Shown here: piece after piece, positions 5 through 11,644 of the stretch | Numbering within the stretch: the first letter of the stretch is position 1 | How the letters are laid out: the number at the start of each line of letters is the position of its first letter | DNA from: a virus | Length of the DNA stretch: 37,004 bases | Virus record (IMG/VR): IMGVR_UViG_3300046385_000126 | Location: 64,001-101,004 of that record | Reading direction: 5' to 3' (one strand) | Program-made: the position numbers and the translations under genes | Notes under the pieces: generated by a model | Seen by the model: the letters and a program-made list of their open reading frames with translations, nothing else | The model's database searches: none | Told to the model about the DNA's origin: nothing

Positions 5-2623
5 ATGAAAAATATTGAAAGCCTAATTACGCCACTAGTACAGACTCAGTTTCCTGAATTCTATCAGGAGCATGGTCCAAAGTTTATTGACTTTGTCCAG
101 CAGTATTATGCATGGATGGAAACCAATAATCAAGCACTACATGTATCACGTAGTTTGTTTGACATTCGTGATATTGATAAGACCTCGGACGACTTTGTCA
201 CGCACTTTAAACAGAAATACTTAAACGGTATTACGTTTGCTTCTGAGGCAGATTCACGTTTGCTTACAAAGAACTCTTTAAGTCTCTATCAAAATAAAGG
301 TACAGGTGACAGTGTTAGTACTACTATTCGTGCTTTGTTTGACCAAGAGGCCACGATATATTATCCAAAGAATGATATTTTAAAGTCATCTCACGGAACA
401 TGGGTGCGCCCATTATATCTTGAGTTATCTATGTCCACGAAGACTCGTACCCTTGTTGGTCATGAAATTATCGGTAGTATCACAGGTGCCAAAGCCTTTG
501 CAGAAAGTTTGGTACGTAGACGCATCGGTACAAAGTTCATTGATATCTTATATTTGAGTGATATACGGGGCGACTTTACAACAGGTGAGCTGATCACTCT
601 TTCATCTGATACGGTAATAGACGATGCTCCCACAATCGTAGGATCGATGACAGAAGTTACTGTGGTAACAGGTGGGGCCAACTTTAAGGTCGGTGATGTG
701 TTTACTGTTGAGTCTGAAAACGGCCGACAAGGTAAAGCTCGTGTTACGGAAGTATCAAATCAAACCGGTAAGGTTAATTTTATTTTTACTACACCACTTG
801 AGAGCGGTGGTTGGGGTTATGCGCTCGATTCTGAAGTGATCGTATCTGATAAGGTACTAAATGTTACAAACATAACAAACAGCAACACACAAATCACAGA
901 TTTCAGTAGACTTGAAACAGTTGTACAGCGATTAGCAAATATTAGTTATACAACTGCAACGCCAAACAATGCCGGCTTCGCTCCTGGCACGGTGATTGAA
1001 AACTATCACGCAAACGGCGTCGTATCTGCTAATGCTATCGTTGTATCCTCATCTACAACAAACAGCACAGCTGGCTACATTATCGTTGCTCCGTATTCTG
1101 GAAACATTGTTTCTGTAGATACTACGTTTGCCATTAAAGGCAACACAACAACTGCAGTTGTTGGTTCCTATGCTGACCGCACGACAAATGCTGTAATTGT
1201 TGGCACCAACACTGATTTTGTTGGTGTTTATAACATTACTGGAAGTGTATTTGTTAAAACACCGTATGCTAACCTAGTCGGTCTGACAACTAACACGACA
1301 GCTACCATCGCAAACATTAGTATTGGCACAGATGCAGGATTCTCTATCGGTTATCTAACCGACACTGAATCTGTATTATTAACACCCGACTTCCTGTATA
1401 GCAACAACACATCCAACGTCGTTTTCAGCACGATTAATCTAACTGGAAATAACTCTGGTGCGTCGTTGCAGTACGGTACCGCGCAAGCAATTACAGGTGG
1501 TTTCGCATATGGTGGATTTGGTTTTGTCAAATATCCTGGCTCTAACATAGATAGTATTTTGTTTGATTGTTTGAGATTCGATACGACAACCATTGGATCA
1601 ATTGCATCACTGGTATCGATCAATCCTGGTAATGACTACAACGTTGATCCATTTGTTGCTGTGGTTGAGCCACGTGTAACAGGATATGATCGACATGATT
1701 ATCTAATGAACATTACACCACAGACTGGTGTGTTTATTTACGGGGAGCAGATCCAACAAACATATGACCTACCTGCTGTTCAGTTGACTGTAAATAACTT
1801 CTCCGGAACTGCTGCAAACGGTACACCCACAACAACTGTTGTAGTCAATGAATTTGTGTATCAATCAAATGCTACAGCCAATGTGGCGGCTAGTGGATAT
1901 GTGTTAGAGGCTGGCATATCAGGTGGTGCTGGCACGATTAAAGTTGCTAACACGTTTGGTACGTTTGTAGTGAGTGGAACATATAAATTAAAATCGTTGA
2001 ATACTGGTGGCACTGCAAACGTGTCTGCAGTGGCTGCAACCACATATGCAACTGTTGCTCGTGGTATTGTAAAGAGTGGATCAAATACATCACTTCTTAA
2101 ACTGAAGCGTATTAACCTTGAAAACACATTTACTACTGGTGGCACTGTTATTGGTCGTTCTTCCGGTGCGACGGCTATTATTGCTAACATTGATCAGGAC
2201 AAGACAACCCTACCTGTTGGTTTGAATGCAAACATTGTTGCAAACGTACAGACAGCAAACGGAGTAGTAACACGTATGGCGGTTGTTGATTCAGGCTTCG
2301 GTTATATTCAAAACGAAACAGTGACTCTGATTAAAGAAGATAGCCCTTTTGAAGTAACTGCTATAGTCGATCTAGGTAAACAAGGACAAGGTAATGGTTA
2401 CTTCTCAAGCACTAAAGGCTTCCTCGATTCAGATAAAAAGATCCATGATAACGATTACTATCAAGAATACAGCTATGAAGTTCAAACAAAAATTCCGTTT
2501 GACAGATATATCGACGTGTTGAAGCAAATTACACACGTCGCTGGTACAAAAGCATTTGGACGTGTTGTATCCATTTCGGAAGTAGATACTCCAATTAGCA
2601 TCATAAATAGTATTACTTACTAA
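5..2623 (+). CDS. Large virion structural protein, probable baseplate wedge/tail component
   Basis: 872 aa. The ATG lies four bases into the window, so its ribosome binding site is outside. The first ~140 residues hold a conserved-looking helical segment: an FPEFYQEHGPKFIDFVQQYY stretch at about 17-36, then a YQNKGT motif and a YYPKNDILKSSHGTW stretch at about 119-133. I recall this arrangement from structural proteins of marine T4-like phages. The rest is Thr/Asn/Val-rich beta-type sequence with short recurring modules such as GGANF, GNDY, GFGY and TVIGRSSGATA, also found in the next two proteins. It ends ten bases before the gp8-like gene, and its position corresponds to T4 gp6/gp7. A baseplate wedge role is inferred from context; I cannot assign it to one T4 gene. 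No signal peptide or membrane segment is seen. Confidence 0.7.
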   Translation: MKNIESLITPLVQTQFPEFYQEHGPKFIDFVQQYYAWMETNNQALHVSRSLFDIRDIDKTSDDFVTHFKQKYLNGITFASEADSRLLTKNSLSLYQNKGTGDSVSTTIRALFDQEATIYYPKNDILKSSHGTWVRPLYLELSMSTKTRTLVGHEIIGSITGAKAFAESLVRRRIGTKFIDILYLSDIRGDFTTGELITLSSDTVIDDAPTIVGSMTEVTVVTGGANFKVGDVFTVESENGRQGKARVTEVSNQTGKVNFIFTTPLESGGWGYALDSEVIVSDKVLNVTNITNSNTQITDFSRLETVVQRLANISYTTATPNNAGFAPGTVIENYHANGVVSANAIVVSSSTTNSTAGYIIVAPYSGNIVSVDTTFAIKGNTTTAVVGSYADRTTNAVIVGTNTDFVGVYNITGSVFVKTPYANLVGLTTNTTATIANISIGTDAGFSIGYLTDTESVLLTPDFLYSNNTSNVVFSTINLTGNNSGASLQYGTAQAITGGFAYGGFGFVKYPGSNIDSILFDCLRFDTTTIGSIASLVSINPGNDYNVDPFVAVVEPRVTGYDRHDYLMNITPQTGVFIYGEQIQQTYDLPAVQLTVNNFSGTAANGTPTTTVVVNEFVYQSNATANVAASGYVLEAGISGGAGTIKVANTFGTFVVSGTYKLKSLNTGGTANVSAVAATTYATVARGIVKSGSNTSLLKLKRINLENTFTTGGTVIGRSSGATAIIANIDQDKTTLPVGLNANIVANVQTANGVVTRMAVVDSGFGYIQNETVTLIKEDSPFEVTAIVDLGKQGQGNGYFSSTKGFLDSDKKIHDNDYYQEYSYEVQTKIPFDRYIDVLKQITHVAGTKAFGRVVSISEVDTPISIINSITY

Positions 2624-2633
2624 AACGAAACAA

Positions 2634-4406
2634 ATGTCAAAGCAACTAATATCTAATTACTTTCGTCTACACAATGTGAAGCAGTTTATCGAGTCTATTA
2701 ACGAAACTGCTAATAGCGTGTATTATGTCTATGCAGGACGCCACCAAGTTTATCCATCAGGAGATACTGTCGTTCCGGATATTATAAACAGCGTCGATGA
2801 AACATTATATACATCTTATAATGAAATGCTATTTGGTAAGCGTGTAGGGCCTACAGATGTAGTACCTATGGTGCCACGTTATGATTGGTCAACTAATACT
2901 AGTTACTCAGCGTACCGTAGCTCGGAAGACTTAACAGATAAACAATTCTATGTTGTTGTTAACGACACCACATATGATGTGTTTAAGTGTTTGGATAACA
3001 ACAGCAACACCCCGTCGACTGTTGCACCAAAATTAAGCGAAACATCAGCAGCAGATGAGTTCTATAGCACGTCTGATGGATATGTGTGGAAATATATGTA
3101 TTCTGTGGATTCCACCACGTTTAATAAATTTGCAACACAAACATCGATGCCTGTTATTGCAAATAACGACGTTGTTGCTAATGCAGTTTCCGGTGCTGTT
3201 GATGTTATATTGACCGCATACCCAGGATCTAATTACAACACGTATTTGTCTAATACTTTTTTATCTTCTGACATTCGCGTTGGTGGTGATGCGCTAAAAT
3301 ACAACATTGCTAATAACGCAACATCATCAAATAACTTTTATACGGGCAGTTTCATTTACATTAAAAATGGAACCGGTAACGGTCAGGGTCGTAGAATCGT
3401 TGATTATACCGTAATCGGTAGTACTAAAACGATCGAGCTTGACACAGCATTTAATGTTGCGCCAGATGTAACATCACAGTACGAAATTACACCAGCCGTT
3501 GTCATTACCGGTGATGGAACAGGTGCTATTGCGCGAGCGCTCGTAAACACTGCCTCTTCTAATTCAATCTCTCAAGTTGAGATTGTTACGCGTGGCAGCG
3601 GATACACATATGCATCAGCCCGTGTTACTGGTAATACCTCGGGTACTACAAACACTGCTGTGTTGGGTATTGTACTTGGACCAAAAAATGGTCACGGATC
3701 AGACCCATCATATGAACTTGGTAGCACATCTTTGTGCATCAGCACTACATTTGCAAATTCGGAAGTTGGCACCATTCCTGTTACCAACGACTACCGCTCG
3801 ATAGGCCTTGTTAAAGATCCATTATTTGCAAACGTGCAATTTACCGTCGGTTCTCTGACTGGTGTATTCAGTATTGGTGAAACTGTTACGCAACCAACGA
3901 CAGGTGCTGTCGGTATCGTTACTGAATTTGACAACATTAACACCCTCACTCTTACGAACGTTAGTGGTATCTTTCTAACAGGTAATTCTACTGTGAACCC
4001 CCTACAAGGTGGGTCGTCGGGTGCAACCTCATCATTAGTATCTTACCAGATTAACGGTCAAGCAAAGAATTTTAATACCTTTGATCAGCGCAACCGTTTC
4101 ACATTCACACCGATAGTAGGATCATTTATTCCTGATGAAGAGGTATACCAGACTGACGTACAGTTGGCAAACGCTGTGTTTCACAGCAATACGTCCGCTA
4201 ACATTTATTTGACGCATGTAAGAGGCACACTAAATACAGGTAACAGTATTATCGGCCAATTGAGTGGCGCATCTGCAACGCTTGTTTATGCCTACCCGCC
4301 TGATCTGGTCATCGGCTCTGGAGAAGTGCTCTACGTTGAAAACGGAAGTGCCATTTCACGCTCCAACAGCCAATCCGAAACAGTAAAGATTATTCTGCAG
4401 TTTTAA
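2634..4406 (+). CDS. gp8: Baseplate wedge subunit, T4 gp8-like
   Basis: 590 aa. T4 gp8 is part of the baseplate wedge and is 334 aa long. Matching landmarks are an N-terminal segment running into a VPRYDW motif at ~82-87 (T4 has IPRRDW), a [FV]KCLDN motif at ~118-122 (T4 has YRCLD), the DGYVWKYMYSVD motif at ~148-159 (T4 has DGYVWEYLFEI), and a C-terminus ending KIILQF (T4 ends NILFTF). The extra length comes from inserted beta modules at ~285-560 (GSGYTYAS, GETVTQPTTGA, GNSIIGQLSGA) of the kind also seen in both flanking proteins. It lies in a tight run, 10 bases after the previous gene and 9 before the next. The family assignment is by recognition of motifs, not by alignment. Confidence 0.75.
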   Translation: MSKQLISNYFRLHNVKQFIESINETANSVYYVYAGRHQVYPSGDTVVPDIINSVDETLYTSYNEMLFGKRVGPTDVVPMVPRYDWSTNTSYSAYRSSEDLTDKQFYVVVNDTTYDVFKCLDNNSNTPSTVAPKLSETSAADEFYSTSDGYVWKYMYSVDSTTFNKFATQTSMPVIANNDVVANAVSGAVDVILTAYPGSNYNTYLSNTFLSSDIRVGGDALKYNIANNATSSNNFYTGSFIYIKNGTGNGQGRRIVDYTVIGSTKTIELDTAFNVAPDVTSQYEITPAVVITGDGTGAIARALVNTASSNSISQVEIVTRGSGYTYASARVTGNTSGTTNTAVLGIVLGPKNGHGSDPSYELGSTSLCISTTFANSEVGTIPVTNDYRSIGLVKDPLFANVQFTVGSLTGVFSIGETVTQPTTGAVGIVTEFDNINTLTLTNVSGIFLTGNSTVNPLQGGSSGATSSLVSYQINGQAKNFNTFDQRNRFTFTPIVGSFIPDEEVYQTDVQLANAVFHSNTSANIYLTHVRGTLNTGNSIIGQLSGASATLVYAYPPDLVIGSGEVLYVENGSAISRSNSQSETVKIILQF

Positions 4407-4415
4407 GAGAAAAAC

Positions 4416-7400
4416 ATGCCATTAGAAAACACACTTAGCGCTAGCCCATATTTTGACGATTATGATCAGGCTAAAGAATTTTATAAAGTTCTTTTTAAAC
4501 CTGGCGTTGCGTTACAAACGCGCGAGTTGAATCAGCTACAAAGCATTCTGCAAAACCAGATCGAGCGATTTGGTAACCATGTATTCAAGTCTGGCACCAT
4601 TATCAGTGGTGTCAACTTTTCATACATCCCAACATACACATACGTCAAGATTCTTGACACAGAGACTAGCGGCACACCGTCTCTTCCATCTTCATATGTT
4701 GACTACTTCGTCAAGAGTGATCTAAACCTGACTGCTCGTATCGTCAATTATGAAGATGGTTTGGAATCAAAATCTCCTGATTTGAAGACATTGTATCTTC
4801 AATATACTAACAGCTCACAACCTGACACTGCTAATGGTAATGCGATCTATACTACATTTAGACCTGATCAGTTGTTGACTGTTTATAGCAAAGACAACAA
4901 CCTATTCAGCGTCACTGTTAATAACGGTGGTCTGGGCTTTTCTAACGCAGATGCTGTTGTAGTAACGAGTGCGATCACCATTACTGGCAACACTATTGCG
5001 TTTGCAAATGGTGAGACTATTACACAGTCTACTACCGGTGCAAAAGCTGTTATTGCTTCCGTCAATACAACCGCAATTGCAAACACAACAATTTTGAAAA
5101 TTAAGCCACGCACGGCTGATTTGACTAACACATCGGTAAGTGCTAATGCGTGGACAATGTCGACTGGTTACAACGTTGTCGGTGGAACTAGTGGTGCAAC
5201 AGCAAACGTTGTGTCGCTGATTGGTAGTGGCGCAGTTGGTCTGGTTTCTACAGATACACAGGGTATTGTTCAGACACTTACACTAGCTGATGGTGGTGCT
5301 GGTTATGACTTCCTTCCTCACGTTACCCTAAAAACAGCTAACTCGACAGCAACTGTTAATAACCTTGACTTGCAACCAAGCAACTTCAAGGCTCTGATCA
5401 CTGTTGCTAATACCAGCACAAACGCCATCGGAACTGGATATGCATTTGGTGTGTCCGAAGGTATCATCTACCAAAAAGGTTACTTCCTTAAAGTAGAACC
5501 ACAAGTTATCACAGTTGATAAGTTTACAACTGCACCAGATAGCGTTGCTGTTGGTTTTAAGACTGTTGAAACCATTGTTGATGCTTATACAGATGAGTCT
5601 CTGTATGATAACGCTGCTAACACAACCAATTATACAGCTCCTGGTGCTGATCGTCTAACGCTTACTCCTGTTCTTACGTTGATGACGACAGCAGAAGCTC
5701 AGGCTAACGTAGACTTCTTTGCATTGGCTGAATGGAAAGAAGGGTTCCCATATAAGGAAAACCGTGTTTCTGTATACTCTAACCTTGCTGATGAACTAGC
5801 GCGCCGTACACGTGAGGCACAAGGTAACTTTGTTGTTGATTCATTCCAGGTTGGTACGAAAGAAAAGGCAACGCCAAACACATCAACTGTACAGACAGTT
5901 ATTGACCCTGGTCTGGCATACATCTCTGGTTACCGTGTTCAGACATCGTACAACAACTACCTTGATGTTGATCGCTCCACAACGAAGACTTCGTTGAGCA
6001 ACCAAAGTATTACTGTTAACTACGGTAACTACGTCAAGGTCAAAGAACTAGCTGGCTTGTTTAACTTCAAAGCTGGTGATACAGTCAGTCTTTATGATAC
6101 AGCAAAACAATATGTGTCAGCATCTACTATTAGTACAAACGGATCAATTGCACCTGCAGGTACCCAAATTGGTACTGCCCGCATTCGTTCACTAGTTATT
6201 GATTCTGGCAGCCCAGGCACACCAGACTGTGTATACAGAATGTATTTGTTTGATGTTGTAATGACTCCTGGACACTCTTTCCGTCAAGCGAGAAGCATAT
6301 TTTTCGATGGTACTGTTCAAGACGGTATCGCTGATATTGCTCTTGAGTATGATGCTACAACATCAGCAAACCTAGCATTCTTGAATGATGTGAATAACGA
6401 TCAGTTGATATTCAATATCGGTCAACCAGCGGTCGCTACACTAAGCGATCTTTCATATCAATATAGAACAGTATCCGATGCTACACTACAACTAACGTCT
6501 GGTGGCCAAGTTGTTATTGGTCCGTTGGGATCAGGCCTATCATTCCCATATAGTGATGGCACGCTTTCTTCAACACAGGAACGCGACTTCATCGTATTCC
6601 CAATTGCAAACACGCAAGCTGCAGCAAATATTGGTGGGTCATTAGCAGTCAATGCAAGCAACACTATCATTGTTGGAACAAGCACGACGTTTGCAAGTGA
6701 TCTACGTGTTGGTGACCATGTTAAGTTACTTGCCGCTAACGGATCCAGCATTGTTAGACAGGTTTCTTCAATTGCAAATAACACATACCTGACGCTGACG
6801 TCTAACGCATCTGTTTCGTTTACAGCAAACGCTGTAATATTCTATCCCGCTCTTTATCCGTTGGATGTTGAAAACAGAAGCGACCGCACCATCACTGTTT
6901 CTGCTAGTAGCAAGACTGTTACCATCAACATCAACAAAACGCTGGCCGGAACCGCTAACGTTATTGCTGTTTACAATATTAAGTCTACCGCAGCAACTCC
7001 TGTTACTAAAACAATCAAACGCGATATCTTTGTTAAGCTACACACAAGCAACAACGTGTCAAGCAACACCGGTCCTTGGGCACTTGGTCTTCCTGGTGCC
7101 GCTCGATTGAAGAAGGTGTTTTTGGGTACAGATGCTGCTGTTAACACATCGAGCACAGATGTAACAAAATACTTCTATGTAGATTCTGGTGATGATGAAA
7201 ACGCATACCGCACTTCTCGTTTGGTATTGAACACTGGTGCAAATCTTGCTGTTAATACCAACCAGTATATCATGGCTCAGCTTGATGTATTTACAAATAA
7301 CGGTCAAGAAGGTTTCTTTACTGTTGGTTCGTACAACATCGATGATACGAAGACTCTGGCAGCTTCAAACACCACAATTAACACACTGGAAATTCCAGAA

Positions 7401-9155
7401 ACGATCACAAACAAAGGCATTTATTATGACCAGCGTGATGTTATCGATTTCCGTCCATACGGTACTGCAACCGCTAACCTATCCACGACTGTGGCTGGCG
7501 CGACTGTCAATCCTGCAAATACGTTTGCATTGAGTGGTGACGACCAGTTCTTCCCTGTACCAGACTCCGCTGTTACGTTTGGTGTTGAATACTACAACAC
7601 ACGTATGGACCGCGTCGTTGTACGTCAAGACTCCACGTTCGAAGTGTTGAGTGGCGTGTCAACACTATCACAGCCTGTTCCACCCCGCGCACCAGCTGAT
7701 GCTGTTACGTTGGCGTTGTTGACTATTCCTCCATATCCTTCACTACCATCTGCATTCAACTCTACCACACTAGAGTTTGTTTCAAAAGGAGTTGGTAGCT
7801 CTAAAGGACCAATTTCAAAACGAACTGCTGATTATAAGATTAACACACGTGCATCCAAAGGTACACGTAACGAGCAGCCTCGTAGATACACTATGCAGGA
7901 TCTTGGCGCTATTGAGCGTCGACTTACCAACGTAGAGTATGCTGTCTCTTTGAGTCAAGTAGAATCTGCAATTAAAGATGTGGTTATCCCTAGCGGAATT
8001 ACACCAACAACCAGCCGCTTCAAGAATGGCTTCTTCGTTGAGCCTTTTGATGACTACACAAAAGTCGATCTATCGAGCCGCGAATATGCTGCAACAATTG
8101 ACCAGCAAAAAGGGTTTTTGAAACCACCTACAAAGCAGATTAACTTTGAAGCATGCTTTGATTTGACAGATACTGCTACAGCTAACTCCGTTGTGACTGG
8201 TAATACCCTGATGTTGCCTTTTACTGATGAGTTGCTGATCGATCAAAGTATCAAGAGCTCTGTCGTAGGGGTTGACGGTCACCGCATTCAATTCAACGGC
8301 GAAGGTACAATTACTCCTTCCTCCTTCTCCATTCAGACACGTGGCGAAGTCACGGTTGTGGAGGATCCGCCACCACTTCCACCACCTAACTATGGTGGTC
8401 CAGGCGATGATAGTGGATTCTTCGAGGGTCTAGTTGAGGGTGTGGGTGATTTGGTTGACGGTATTCTTTCGCCTATATCTGATGGCGATTGCTTCACACC
8501 TGAAACAATCATCTTTATGGCTGATGGATCATCCAAGCAAATTAAAGACGTTAAGGCTGGTGAACGTGTACTTGCATCTGATATGAAAACAGTCAACACT
8601 GTTCGTTATATTGAGATGTTGCGTAAGACGTCATGGGATTCATTGTATTCTCCATCACCATCGTTTAAGCCTTTTGTCACTGTTAACCACCCACTGATCA
8701 TTAACGGTGAATTGGTGTCTGTTGACCCTAATGAGACATACATGAGATATCCATGGTTAGGTATGTCCGTCAGCATTGATAAATATACCGATCACGTTGA
8801 AATGATTCCATCTGATAACCGACCAGTATATAACTTGTGGGTTGACGGGGACGGTACATATATTGTTAACGGCTTTGGTACCACATCGATCGTCGGTCAC
8901 GGCTACGCGTTGGCTGGTGCAGTTCTACGTGGCAGTATCAATCACGATCAAACGATGGAGATTATGCGTAGATTCACCTCAGATGGCCGCGAACTACAAT
9001 ATGGGTCATACATCGTAAACAAGGTGCTTGATAAACTAAACATTAAATGGGTAAATGACATGCTATTTGCAGTTGCCTTGCAGGACGGTGTTGCTAAGAA
9101 GGCACTATTCGGCATCACCAGATTCATTGGTACACTAGCCTGGATGGCAAAGTAA
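4416..9155 (+). CDS. Giant baseplate/tail structural protein with DUF4815-like N-terminus and C-terminal Hint domain
   Basis: 1579 aa. Residues ~8-65 carry the pattern of DUF4815 (YFDDYDQAKEFYKVLFKPG, then ALQTRELNQLQSILQNQIE and SGTIISG), typical of large tail-tip proteins in marine myoviruses. The middle is beta-rich with modules GGLGF, GETITQSTTGA, GTSGATA and GGAGY. A Pro-rich linker at ~1315-1330 precedes a Hint (Hedgehog/intein) domain: C1359 in DCFTPETIIFMADGS, a block-B T-x-x-H (TVNH, H1425), and a terminal VYNLWVDGDGTYIVNG block. About 84 residues follow H1495. The usual final His-Asn of inteins is replaced by His-Gly. Known Hint domains cleave or splice proteins autocatalytically; whether this one is active is unknown. 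The upstream and downstream neighbours are also virion proteins. Confidence 0.75.
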   Translation: MPLENTLSASPYFDDYDQAKEFYKVLFKPGVALQTRELNQLQSILQNQIERFGNHVFKSGTIISGVNFSYIPTYTYVKILDTETSGTPSLPSSYVDYFVKSDLNLTARIVNYEDGLESKSPDLKTLYLQYTNSSQPDTANGNAIYTTFRPDQLLTVYSKDNNLFSVTVNNGGLGFSNADAVVVTSAITITGNTIAFANGETITQSTTGAKAVIASVNTTAIANTTILKIKPRTADLTNTSVSANAWTMSTGYNVVGGTSGATANVVSLIGSGAVGLVSTDTQGIVQTLTLADGGAGYDFLPHVTLKTANSTATVNNLDLQPSNFKALITVANTSTNAIGTGYAFGVSEGIIYQKGYFLKVEPQVITVDKFTTAPDSVAVGFKTVETIVDAYTDESLYDNAANTTNYTAPGADRLTLTPVLTLMTTAEAQANVDFFALAEWKEGFPYKENRVSVYSNLADELARRTREAQGNFVVDSFQVGTKEKATPNTSTVQTVIDPGLAYISGYRVQTSYNNYLDVDRSTTKTSLSNQSITVNYGNYVKVKELAGLFNFKAGDTVSLYDTAKQYVSASTISTNGSIAPAGTQIGTARIRSLVIDSGSPGTPDCVYRMYLFDVVMTPGHSFRQARSIFFDGTVQDGIADIALEYDATTSANLAFLNDVNNDQLIFNIGQPAVATLSDLSYQYRTVSDATLQLTSGGQVVIGPLGSGLSFPYSDGTLSSTQERDFIVFPIANTQAAANIGGSLAVNASNTIIVGTSTTFASDLRVGDHVKLLAANGSSIVRQVSSIANNTYLTLTSNASVSFTANAVIFYPALYPLDVENRSDRTITVSASSKTVTININKTLAGTANVIAVYNIKSTAATPVTKTIKRDIFVKLHTSNNVSSNTGPWALGLPGAARLKKVFLGTDAAVNTSSTDVTKYFYVDSGDDENAYRTSRLVLNTGANLAVNTNQYIMAQLDVFTNNGQEGFFTVGSYNIDDTKTLAASNTTINTLEIPETITNKGIYYDQRDVIDFRPYGTATANLSTTVAGATVNPANTFALSGDDQFFPVPDSAVTFGVEYYNTRMDRVVVRQDSTFEVLSGVSTLSQPVPPRAPADAVTLALLTIPPYPSLPSAFNSTTLEFVSKGVGSSKGPISKRTADYKINTRASKGTRNEQPRRYTMQDLGAIERRLTNVEYAVSLSQVESAIKDVVIPSGITPTTSRFKNGFFVEPFDDYTKVDLSSREYAATIDQQKGFLKPPTKQINFEACFDLTDTATANSVVTGNTLMLPFTDELLIDQSIKSSVVGVDGHRIQFNGEGTITPSSFSIQTRGEVTVVEDPPPLPPPNYGGPGDDSGFFEGLVEGVGDLVDGILSPISDGDCFTPETIIFMADGSSKQIKDVKAGERVLASDMKTVNTVRYIEMLRKTSWDSLYSPSPSFKPFVTVNHPLIINGELVSVDPNETYMRYPWLGMSVSIDKYTDHVEMIPSDNRPVYNLWVDGDGTYIVNGFGTTSIVGHGYALAGAVLRGSINHDQTMEIMRRFTSDGRELQYGSYIVNKVLDKLNIKWVNDMLFAVALQDGVAKKALFGITRFIGTLAWMAK
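8490..8903 (+). other. Hint (intein/Hedgehog-type) autoprocessing domain within the 1579-aa protein
   Basis: The region codes for residues ~1359-1496. Visible hallmarks are Cys1 in GDCFTPETIIFMADGSSKQI (block A), AGERVLASD soon after, TVNHPLII (block B, H1425), and VYNLWVDGDGTYIVNG (block F). Block G is atypical: the sequence reads IVGHG instead of the His-Asn that supports C-terminal cleavage in inteins. There is no room for a homing endonuclease. The domain is at the C-terminal side of the protein, which fits a cleavage-type Hint domain better than a splicing intein. Confidence 0.7.
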
Positions 9156-9164
9156 AGGTAAAAA

Positions 9165-9587
9165 ATGCCGAAGAAAATTAATCCTCGTCTATTCTTTCTG
9201 GCACGTGAGCAGGTATTTCGTTTTGAAGTATCTTCTCTGATGCCGTCGACATATCATAACTTTTTCTTTGAAAGACAGAAAGTTGACGCTTCAAAAATTA
9301 AGCCCGTTGGCGGTAAGATCGGTGATCCGATAATCACCGACGCAGACGGTAAGGTATCGTTTGACTATTACTATGATTCAGGTCTCACATCAGACGCAAC
9401 AGCAGTTGATCAAGCACAACAAAAAGCGAATAGTGTAGCTGGCAACAAAGAAGTAATCGTTGCTGCCTCAGCAATAGACACACTTGCAAACGACTTCGAA
9501 TCGACGGTGTTGTCTTATTTTAGATCACATATCCGCATACAGGTATACGTTGTGCCGGAAAGTGACTATGCAGAAGTCAAACAATAA
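9165..9587 (+). CDS. Small virion structural protein, tail-tip associated
   Basis: 140 aa. It begins with a Shine-Dalgarno-like AAAGG just upstream (around 9153-9158). Residues ~20-70 have the pattern SLMPSTYHNFFF...GDPIITDADGKVSFDYYYDSG, a beta-sandwich-like motif that I associate with phage tail-tip and adaptor proteins, in which a PNT-x-H/Y stretch is followed by a 'T-D-x-x-G-x-v-x-F' strand. No catalytic residues, signal or membrane segment are seen. Placement directly between the DUF4815-type protein and the 678-aa structural protein suggests that it joins the same baseplate or fibre-base assembly. The function is inferred from context only. Confidence 0.6.
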   Translation: MPKKINPRLFFLAREQVFRFEVSSLMPSTYHNFFFERQKVDASKIKPVGGKIGDPIITDADGKVSFDYYYDSGLTSDATAVDQAQQKANSVAGNKEVIVAASAIDTLANDFESTVLSYFRSHIRIQVYVVPESDYAEVKQ

Positions 9588-9607: not shown

Positions 9608-11644
9608 ATGCTAGGGTTTGATTTAGCACAGACATTTTATCTGGACAAAGACGCTGTCCAAGGAGCCGATCAGGCTTTCTTGACAGCCGTCGATCTTTAC
9701 TTCTACCGAAAGCCTGTAGCCGGAAAAACAAAATCCGGTATCAGAGGCCCAGGTGCATCGGTGTATCTGTGCCCCGTTTTGGAGAACGGTACACCAGATC
9801 TTAACTTAGTGCATCACACGTTTGGTGCTCGTGTAGAATATGCAGATATTGCTACGAGCACGAGTGGAACAGAGGCTACAACGTTTACGTTTCGTCAACC
9901 TATTCCAGTACCAACAGCACGTAGTTATGGTATTTTAATTAAGTTTGATGGTAGTGACTCAGACTTCCAATTGTGGTACAACAAGTCAGGTGATAACGTA
10001 CTTGGAACAACTACACAAACACAGGTATCGTCTGGTAAAGTTGATGGTTTCTTTTACAAGATTACTAACGGTAAAGAACTGACTCCAGAACGTGATGCTG
10101 ATCTTTCGTTCCGCTTGAAAGTTGCTAAATTTTTATCAACATCATCAACGTTCAAGATTAAAAACCGTCCTTACGAGATCTTGAAACTCAATGCTAACAC
10201 CAGTTCGTTCAAAGGTGGTGAAGACATTTACCAACAACGCGCAAACGCTGCTGGTACTGTCAGCATTACTACCACTGGCGTGTCTGTTGTCGGTACTGGA
10301 ACAGCGTTCAACTCAACATTGCTTCAAGGTGATAAAGTTATCTTGACGGATGGTACTGCTGGTAACACAGACGTACGTACAGTTGTTTCGGTTGCAAATG
10401 CAACTTACATGACGGTAGACGTTGAACCATCATTTACTGCTGCCTCTGGTACATATTACAAGACAGTTGTTGGTAAAGTTTTCCAGTCTGATGGCATCAC
10501 CGACTACCTTGTGATTCAAGATGCTAATTCGAACAGTAGTTTGTACCTTACAACAGGTACGACCATTACAGGTGTTGACTCGCTAGCTTCTGCAAACATT
10601 GTTTCTATTTACGATTATGCTATCAACAGCATCGTCCCTGGATTTAACGTCAAAGCACCGTCAGGAACATCTGTATCCACTACAGTCAACTTTGCTAATG
10701 CTGATTACCAATTTACTTCTTCAACAGTTGCTAGTGTTGATTTGGGCCGTCGTAGAATGTTGAATGAATATGCAGCTGTTCTGGCATCGAGCACTAACGA
10801 ACAAACTGCAGCAACACCTGTTCGCTCTTTTAACGGTACGTTGACTCTTACGACAAGCAATCCTTACGTTTCACCATACGTTCGTCAAGAAAACTTGGAC
10901 TTGTTTGCAGAGCGTTATGAAATTAACAACGATGCTACAGATGAGTACAAAGGCAATGGTAATGCAAAGGCCCGCTACATCTCAAAAACTATTGCTCTTG
11001 CAGAAGATCAAAAAGCAGAAGATTTGAAAGTGTTTGTGCGAGCATATAAACCTGCCAACACATCTATCCTTGTTTATGCAAAGCTGCGTAACTCGGAAGA
11101 TACAGAATCTTTTGATGTCAAAGATTGGACCGAGCTGACTGTTAACAACAATGTAACGATCGTCAGCAACCCAGCCAACATCTTTGATAGAATTGAGCTA
11201 GCATATGATGTACCGTTCACTACGACGAGTACTCTTGTTGATGGTCAGTTCACTACAACATCTGCATGCACCGTCATCACAGGTACGTCCGGTACAGTTA
11301 ACACATCGATCCAAGTAGGGGATGTTGTTCGTGTGTCGTATCCTGCCTCAACAACGACGTACTTCACTGATACAGTTGTTGCTGCTAACTCGACAACCAT
11401 CACTATTGCAAACCCTGTTTCCAACTCTAGCTTGATTGGTCCAGGTTATTTGGTGAATGTCGTGGATCGTCCAAATAGTGGATACCTGGACATTCAACAA
11501 CAAAACGTATTAACATATTACAACCGCGCACTGTCTAAATTCCAGACATTCGATTCGTTCGCCATTAAGATTGTTCTTCTGTCTGAGGATGGCGTAAAGA
11601 TTCCTTATGTGGATGATGTGCGTGCAATTGCTGTTTCTGCATGA
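9608..11644 (+). CDS. Virion structural protein (tail-tip/baseplate periphery)
   Basis: 678 aa. The N-terminal ~160 residues follow a pattern common in marine myovirus structural proteins: DLAQTFYLD, a LTAVDLYFYRKP strand, a GASVYLCPVLENGTPD segment, TFTFRQPIPVP and YGILIKFDGSDSDFQLWYNKSG. These read as a beta-sandwich domain. Residues ~210-340 contain a Thr/Val-rich repeat (GTVSITTTGVSVVGTGTAFN), like the GTGTxF modules seen in the 1579-aa protein (GTSTTFASDLRVGD). The C-terminal part has LAEDQKAEDLKVFVRAYKPAN and ends with IPYVDDVRAIAVSA. The stop overlaps the next start (ATGA), implying translational coupling. It probably attaches to the baseplate together with the DUF4815-type protein; no T4 homologue can be named. 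Confidence 0.6.
   Translation: MLGFDLAQTFYLDKDAVQGADQAFLTAVDLYFYRKPVAGKTKSGIRGPGASVYLCPVLENGTPDLNLVHHTFGARVEYADIATSTSGTEATTFTFRQPIPVPTARSYGILIKFDGSDSDFQLWYNKSGDNVLGTTTQTQVSSGKVDGFFYKITNGKELTPERDADLSFRLKVAKFLSTSSTFKIKNRPYEILKLNANTSSFKGGEDIYQQRANAAGTVSITTTGVSVVGTGTAFNSTLLQGDKVILTDGTAGNTDVRTVVSVANATYMTVDVEPSFTAASGTYYKTVVGKVFQSDGITDYLVIQDANSNSSLYLTTGTTITGVDSLASANIVSIYDYAINSIVPGFNVKAPSGTSVSTTVNFANADYQFTSSTVASVDLGRRRMLNEYAAVLASSTNEQTAATPVRSFNGTLTLTTSNPYVSPYVRQENLDLFAERYEINNDATDEYKGNGNAKARYISKTIALAEDQKAEDLKVFVRAYKPANTSILVYAKLRNSEDTESFDVKDWTELTVNNNVTIVSNPANIFDRIELAYDVPFTTTSTLVDGQFTTTSACTVITGTSGTVNTSIQVGDVVRVSYPASTTTYFTDTVVAANSTTITIANPVSNSSLIGPGYLVNVVDRPNSGYLDIQQQNVLTYYNRALSKFQTFDSFAIKIVLLSEDGVKIPYVDDVRAIAVSA

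Follow-up and report, generated by a model that had tools for sequence, protein, structure and literature searches.

A C-terminal module with a Hint domain ending in Thr-Ser on the N-terminal half of a split phage baseplate protein

A split baseplate protein and its Hint domain

The window, the whole 37,004-nucleotide stretch of viral DNA analysed here, carries a baseplate wedge gene, then a gp8-like gene and then an open reading frame of 1579 residues (Table 1). The first-pass annotation had described the product of this frame as a baseplate-type protein, and the family match bears this out: residues 1-1310 match PF16075 (E 8e-55, 186.6 bits against a cut-off of 30), which places the protein in the DUF4815/VrlC family, and cover positions 90-1101 of the 2056 positions of phrog_358. 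Many T4-like phages encode VrlC as one chain; in the window phage, itself T4-like and uncultured, two genes encode it. The position directly before the Hint domain (-1) is Asp1358 in the window; among the 51 members of the module family described below it is Gly in 32 and Asp in four.

Table 1. Features of the split VrlC locus, in window coordinates
Feature	Position	Strand	Basis
Baseplate wedge subunit, frame open past window start	5..2623	+	phrog_17744, E 2e-172
gp8-like baseplate wedge subunit	2634..4406	+	phrog_438, E 1e-87; Pfam Phage-Gp8
DUF4815/VrlC-type baseplate protein gene, 1579 aa, with C-terminal Hint module	4416..9155	+	open ORF
N-half of VrlC, DUF4815 core, residues 1-1310	4416..8345	+	PF16075 and phrog_358 matches
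Pro/Gly-rich linker, residues 1311-1358	8346..8489	+	Gly/Pro-rich in relatives too
Hint domain, Cys1359-Ser1491	8490..8888	+	profile and fold matches
Cys1359, block A nucleophile	8490..8492	+	51/51 members; aligns with Hedgehog Cys258
Glu1400, aligned with Hedgehog Asp46 (Asp303)	8613..8615	+	51/51; hhalign -glob agrees, low confidence
Block B T-V-N-H, Thr1422 and His1425	8679..8690	+	Thr and His in 51/51; His1425 codon 8688-8690
VYNLW motif	8826..8840	+	invariant in TS-type members; partly a selection criterion
Thr-Thr-Ser, last two in the intein His-Asn column	8880..8888	+	first Thr 51/51
C-terminal helical domain, five helices	8904..9152	+	model prediction; no assigned family
140-aa ORF between VrlC halves	9165..9587	+	kept in close relatives with or without Hint
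C-half of split VrlC, separate gene	9608..11644	+	phrog_358 positions 1780-2054 of 2056, E 5e-44

The segment from Cys1359 to Ser1491 is a real Hint domain, beyond chance resemblance. Single-sequence Pfam matches are weak (PF01079, E 1e-5; PF05203, E 2e-5), both falling under the curated cut-offs. A profile built from 17 sequences matches the solved BIL2 Hint domain end to end (residues 1-130, E 2e-6); its match to a bacterial BIL domain has E 1e-3. In an AlphaFold2 model built from 23 aligned sequences (pLDDT 94, pTM 0.88), VIA-align 2 places BIL2 first (Z 15.3, rmsd 2.3, 129 residues), followed by inteins (Z up to 13.2) and Hedgehog 1at0 (Z 12.6). The Hint beta-fold, Cys1 and TxxH that mark the superfamily are all present. 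The annotation had located the domain by C1359, the His of TVNH and the block VYNLWVDGDGTYIVNG, which is found in the Hint region of the 1579-aa protein; reading frame, codons, BIL2 profile and fold match confirm this assignment.

The nearest solved folds belong to BIL domains (Tetrahymena BUBL1 BIL2, 6y75/6tmm, Z 15.3; Clostridium BIL, 2lwy, Z 12.4), with which the window shares Cys1, TxxH and a mini-Hint architecture devoid of an endonuclease. However, the Asn that serves C-terminal cleavage in BIL domains is missing from the window, whereas BIL2 has a terminal Asn (the solved protein carries the mutations C1A-N143A), has Val at the column of Hedgehog Asp46 and, in the solved construct, lacks the conserved helical tail domain. 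Vint domains (PF14623, 8r2c) are matched weakly by 16 of 17 members in profile comparison and at Z 11.5 in fold, but the window scores under the curated cut-off, and Pfam scans of the window protein and of six relatives matched no VWA domain, the fusion partner of Vint. Entries named 'Hint domain containing protein' from uncultured Caudovirales (BFVD) are phage Hint proteins of similar predicted fold, although the matched region of about 140-170 columns corresponds mainly to Hint.

The end column and the helical tail

The final His-Asn of inteins is absent, as the annotation had stated, but it is not replaced by VGHG as proposed there. One relative that keeps His-Asn (L099) ends 'HYANGQKVHN-IVGNG', and a second (L096), beyond a frameshift, likewise ends 'HYANGQKVHN-I(V/I)GNG'; aligned with these, the window reads 'NGFGTTS-IVGHG', which puts Thr1490-Ser1491 in the His-Asn column and VGHG just downstream. 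A Vint-type 'LGHG' ending as the counterpart of VGHG was dropped after this alignment. The frameshift in L096 lies at a G run within the Hint domain (about 9485) and is probably an assembly error. Across the 51 members the penultimate column holds Thr in 34, His in ten, Glu in three, and Pro and Ser in two each, and the last (Asn) column Ser in 47 and Thr in four.

The canonical class 1 intein end (His-Asn or Asn/Gln, then Cys, Ser or Thr) is thus absent from the window, where Thr-Ser is followed by Ile. Nor is the segment behind the Hint domain the rest of the host protein, as a C-extein would be: the C-half of the host is a separate gene and the tail constitutes a distinct domain. Splicing by this domain is not expected from its sequence, in agreement with the first-pass annotation, because the Asn and a +1 nucleophile are both missing and another gene encodes what would be the natural C-extein.

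The annotation had counted 84 residues after VGHG. Counted from Ser1491, the extension comprises 88 residues, and it forms a conserved helical domain, with five predicted helices, rather than a stray extension. The distance from the Hint domain to the stop codon is 84-116 residues (median 92) in the 49 members whose end could be read. Compared alone with PDB folds, the tail has no convincing match (best E 0.9), which does not imply a new fold. Homology to the tail of HN- and SN-type members, and to the 'ICTKLYELGLL' C-terminal domain of relatives without Hint, was rejected (hhalign probability 0.3-0.5%). The tail is similar in size to the SRR of Hedgehog, and no sequence similarity between the two was detected.

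A conserved family and its carrier proteins

Scans of IMG/VR with the alignments returned 33 and 59 loci and, after removal of duplicates, 51 VYNLW-type modules (45 at <90% and 24 at <50% identity), comprising the window and 50 related modules from metagenomic, uncultured phages. Cys1, TxxH, Glu1400, Trp1447, YNL, Asp1479, Asn1485 and Thr1489 are kept in all 51, an invariance that for the pattern motifs is partly due to selection: the collection patterns included VYNLW and the end motif, as well as the Cys block in the first scan, and membership was counted only with VYNLW. TxxH and Glu1400 were part of no collection pattern. Conservation of the Cys and the block-B His, which the annotation had set as one of the points on which its reading would stand or fall, is found throughout (51/51 for both). 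Between the window and its relative L002, dN/dS is ~0.05 for the Hint domain, ~0.03 for the tail and 0.03 for the core, values that derive from few changes. A tblastn search of 50,697 phage records turned up no member of the family, isolate phages gave no full-length relative of the module by tblastn, and no literature on Hint domains of phage tail proteins was found in a search that left subscription journals mostly outside. The TS-type modules, named for their Thr-Ser end, form, on phage baseplate proteins, a Hint superfamily branch that is real, conserved and apparently undescribed. One module lies in a 278-kb Burkholderiales MAG contig (L189, 283-891), perhaps a phage or prophage.

Carriers include DUF4815 proteins, gp5-like hub proteins and other virion proteins, with the module always at the end of the gene; it terminates gp5-OB hub proteins (L173, L177), a Big_9/LRR protein (L161) and further virion-like proteins. 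Among distinct VrlC proteins with a readable end, Hint was found in none of 54 single chains and, by profile, in 29 of 68 split N-halves, a share inflated by the many loci that were fetched with the Hint query. When only loci fetched with the core are considered, six distinct split proteins carry Hint (L002, L011, L023, L038, L096, L099) and no single chain does. The remaining 39 split N-halves were scored as lacking Hint, though in three cases the following ORF carries the module and the N-half of phage DLP_6 bears a divergent Hint. A separate middle fragment holds the module in L197 and L223, directly ahead of the C-half. Usually, the Hint gene ends and the C-half gene begins within about 30 bases of each other; other ORFs intervene in the window and its close relatives. 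The module is not essential to the core protein, because close relatives whose cores are 57-64% identical to the window N-half have other C-terminal ends or none.

Several further arrangements were observed at these loci. The DLP_6 domain belongs to a VlrC protein of an isolated Stenotrophomonas phage (L003, 8023-8472), has the form GGGGGGC...YSHNASISYEKM, was missed by the profile and has relatives in Xanthomonas and Erwinia phages. Other C-terminal cassettes follow Gly/Pro linkers on VrlC N-halves, including the helical-looking 'ICTKLYELGLL' domain and a CFLTTA-type domain (L094, L106, L100, L032; L092). Small virion-like proteins with NCNCNCNC repeats occur in L209 (4999-6660), one of which continues directly into the Hint module. 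In L186, L187 and L188 (L187 ORF from 7920), a Hint domain ending VHN-Ala lies near the N-terminus of a tail-tip-like protein and is followed by a Gly-rich stretch.

Candidate chemistry of the module

The N-half of the split baseplate protein probably ends in a Hint-superfamily autoprocessing module that acts by thioester formation followed by release. A thioester at Asp1358-Cys1359 and its release by a nucleophile are predicted by analogy with established Hint chemistry and from the conserved residues. Cys1359, aided by Thr1422 and His1425, would attack the carbonyl of Asp1358 and convert the peptide bond to a thioester. In the absence of a cyclising Asn and of a +1 nucleophile, the second step would fall to an external nucleophile, water by default, probably activated by Glu1400. 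The baseplate protein would then end at Asp1358, freeing the Hint domain together with its helical tail (about 24 kDa), and the tail may fold on the Hint domain, gating the reaction or holding a partner or the nucleophile. Retention of the Cys, Thr, His, Glu1400 and the Ser/Thr end column, the low dN/dS, the predicted fold, the roles of the matching residues in Hedgehog and recurrence of the module on several virion proteins argue for autoprocessing. Against it stand the uncommon Asp at -1 (4/51), the placement of Glu1400 by sequence alignment alone, the Glu that three HN-type array Hints have at that column, and the close relatives that do without the module.

To our knowledge, conjugation of the Hog type has so far been described in no proteins but eukaryotic ones of the Hedgehog type. 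Thiol-induced cleavage of Hedgehog depends on the Cys and on TxxH, with Asp46 (D303) acting as general base towards cholesterol, and inteins are described as lacking both D303 and C400 (PMC9163320; PMC13060885). The SRR follows the Hint domain, and Cys400 stands where Asn would end it (PMC9163320). The phage modules resemble Hedgehog (1at0) in their C-F start (G-C-F in 32/51), TxxH, lack of a terminal Asn, an accessory region C-terminal to Hint and an acidic residue at the Asp46 column, as judged from alignment. MAFFT alignment of the 51 members with Drosophila Hedgehog (sequence checked against PDB 6td6) sets Glu1400 on Asp46 and 'F-I-E-K' on 'F-M-D-R', with Val in BIL2, but is trustworthy only locally as it gaps out the Hedgehog TxxH; global hhalign (-glob) gives the same pairing, with low confidence beyond block A. 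This column is Lys in the HN-, NN- and SN-type relatives in A4 and Glu in three HN-type Hints of tandem arrays, so that exclusivity of Glu1400 to members without Asn was rejected. The phage end column, in contrast, holds Ser or Thr against Cys400 (the Hedgehog MAFFT row is gapped here and the column was taken from motif spacing), the tail is unlike SRR in sequence, and no sterol context is known for the carrier, a structural protein of a phage.

On these grounds the tail could recruit a specific nucleophile (a lipid, sugar alcohol, amine or partner protein), leaving a covalent adduct at the new C-terminus. The idea of a ligand is more than a guess because of the conserved Glu at the Asp46 position (51/51) and the C-terminal accessory domain of ~90 residues, which recalls SRR (PMC9163320), and the missing Asn likewise parallels Hedgehog. 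Nevertheless, the tail has no detectable sequence similarity to SRR, no ligand is known, three HN-type Hints also have the Glu, and hydrolysis requires nothing extra, which leaves the proposal unlikely. An entire Hog-like family in tailed phages, conjugating a small molecule, a partner or a host-surface nucleophile to the ends of baseplate proteins, is equally doubtful. A relic, in which an intein or BIL domain has lost splicing and persists only as a structural C-terminal cap, would fit the loss of His-Asn, which related phages retain at this place (L099, L096) or replace by NN or SN; yet the catalytic Cys, Thr and His are invariant in 51 members reaching <50% identity and dN/dS indicates purifying selection, making a relic quite improbable. 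The occurrence of the module, among VrlC proteins, only on split ones, and directly upstream of the C-half gene in most loci, could also suggest that the N-half thioester is attacked by the N-terminus of the adjacent-gene C-half, restoring one VrlC chain. This is very improbable, as the C-halves of Hint-bearing phages have no conserved N-terminal Cys or other nucleophile and as 39 split N-halves, with the exceptions given above, were scored without Hint. An N-terminal Cys on the C-half was sought as a ligation partner and not found in the Hint-bearing phages.

Under autoprocessing by thioester and release, phages with TS-type modules probably cut the ends of their own tail proteins and might chemically tag them. 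If so, Hint chemistry would be a built-in phage tool to finish, and possibly modify, virion proteins rather than a selfish intein; the conserved acid and accessory domain would offer a bacterial-virus model for the origin of Hog-type domains, and the modules would supply compact domains for cleavage or conjugation. The role of the module can be tested through its link to split VrlC genes.

Tandem Hint domains, two to four in number, occur in some relatives, and the final one is usually of the TS type. In L038 and L070 (7986-13751) a DUF4815 protein has three terminal tandem Hint domains, the first two ending VVHN then Cys, a full intein splice motif, and the third lacking HN. Arrays of two to four are also found in L204 (1-2358), at the C-terminus of L225 and L226, and in L224; their earlier units end HN-Lys and can be spaced by just one residue, and the final unit is of the TS type with a helical tail.
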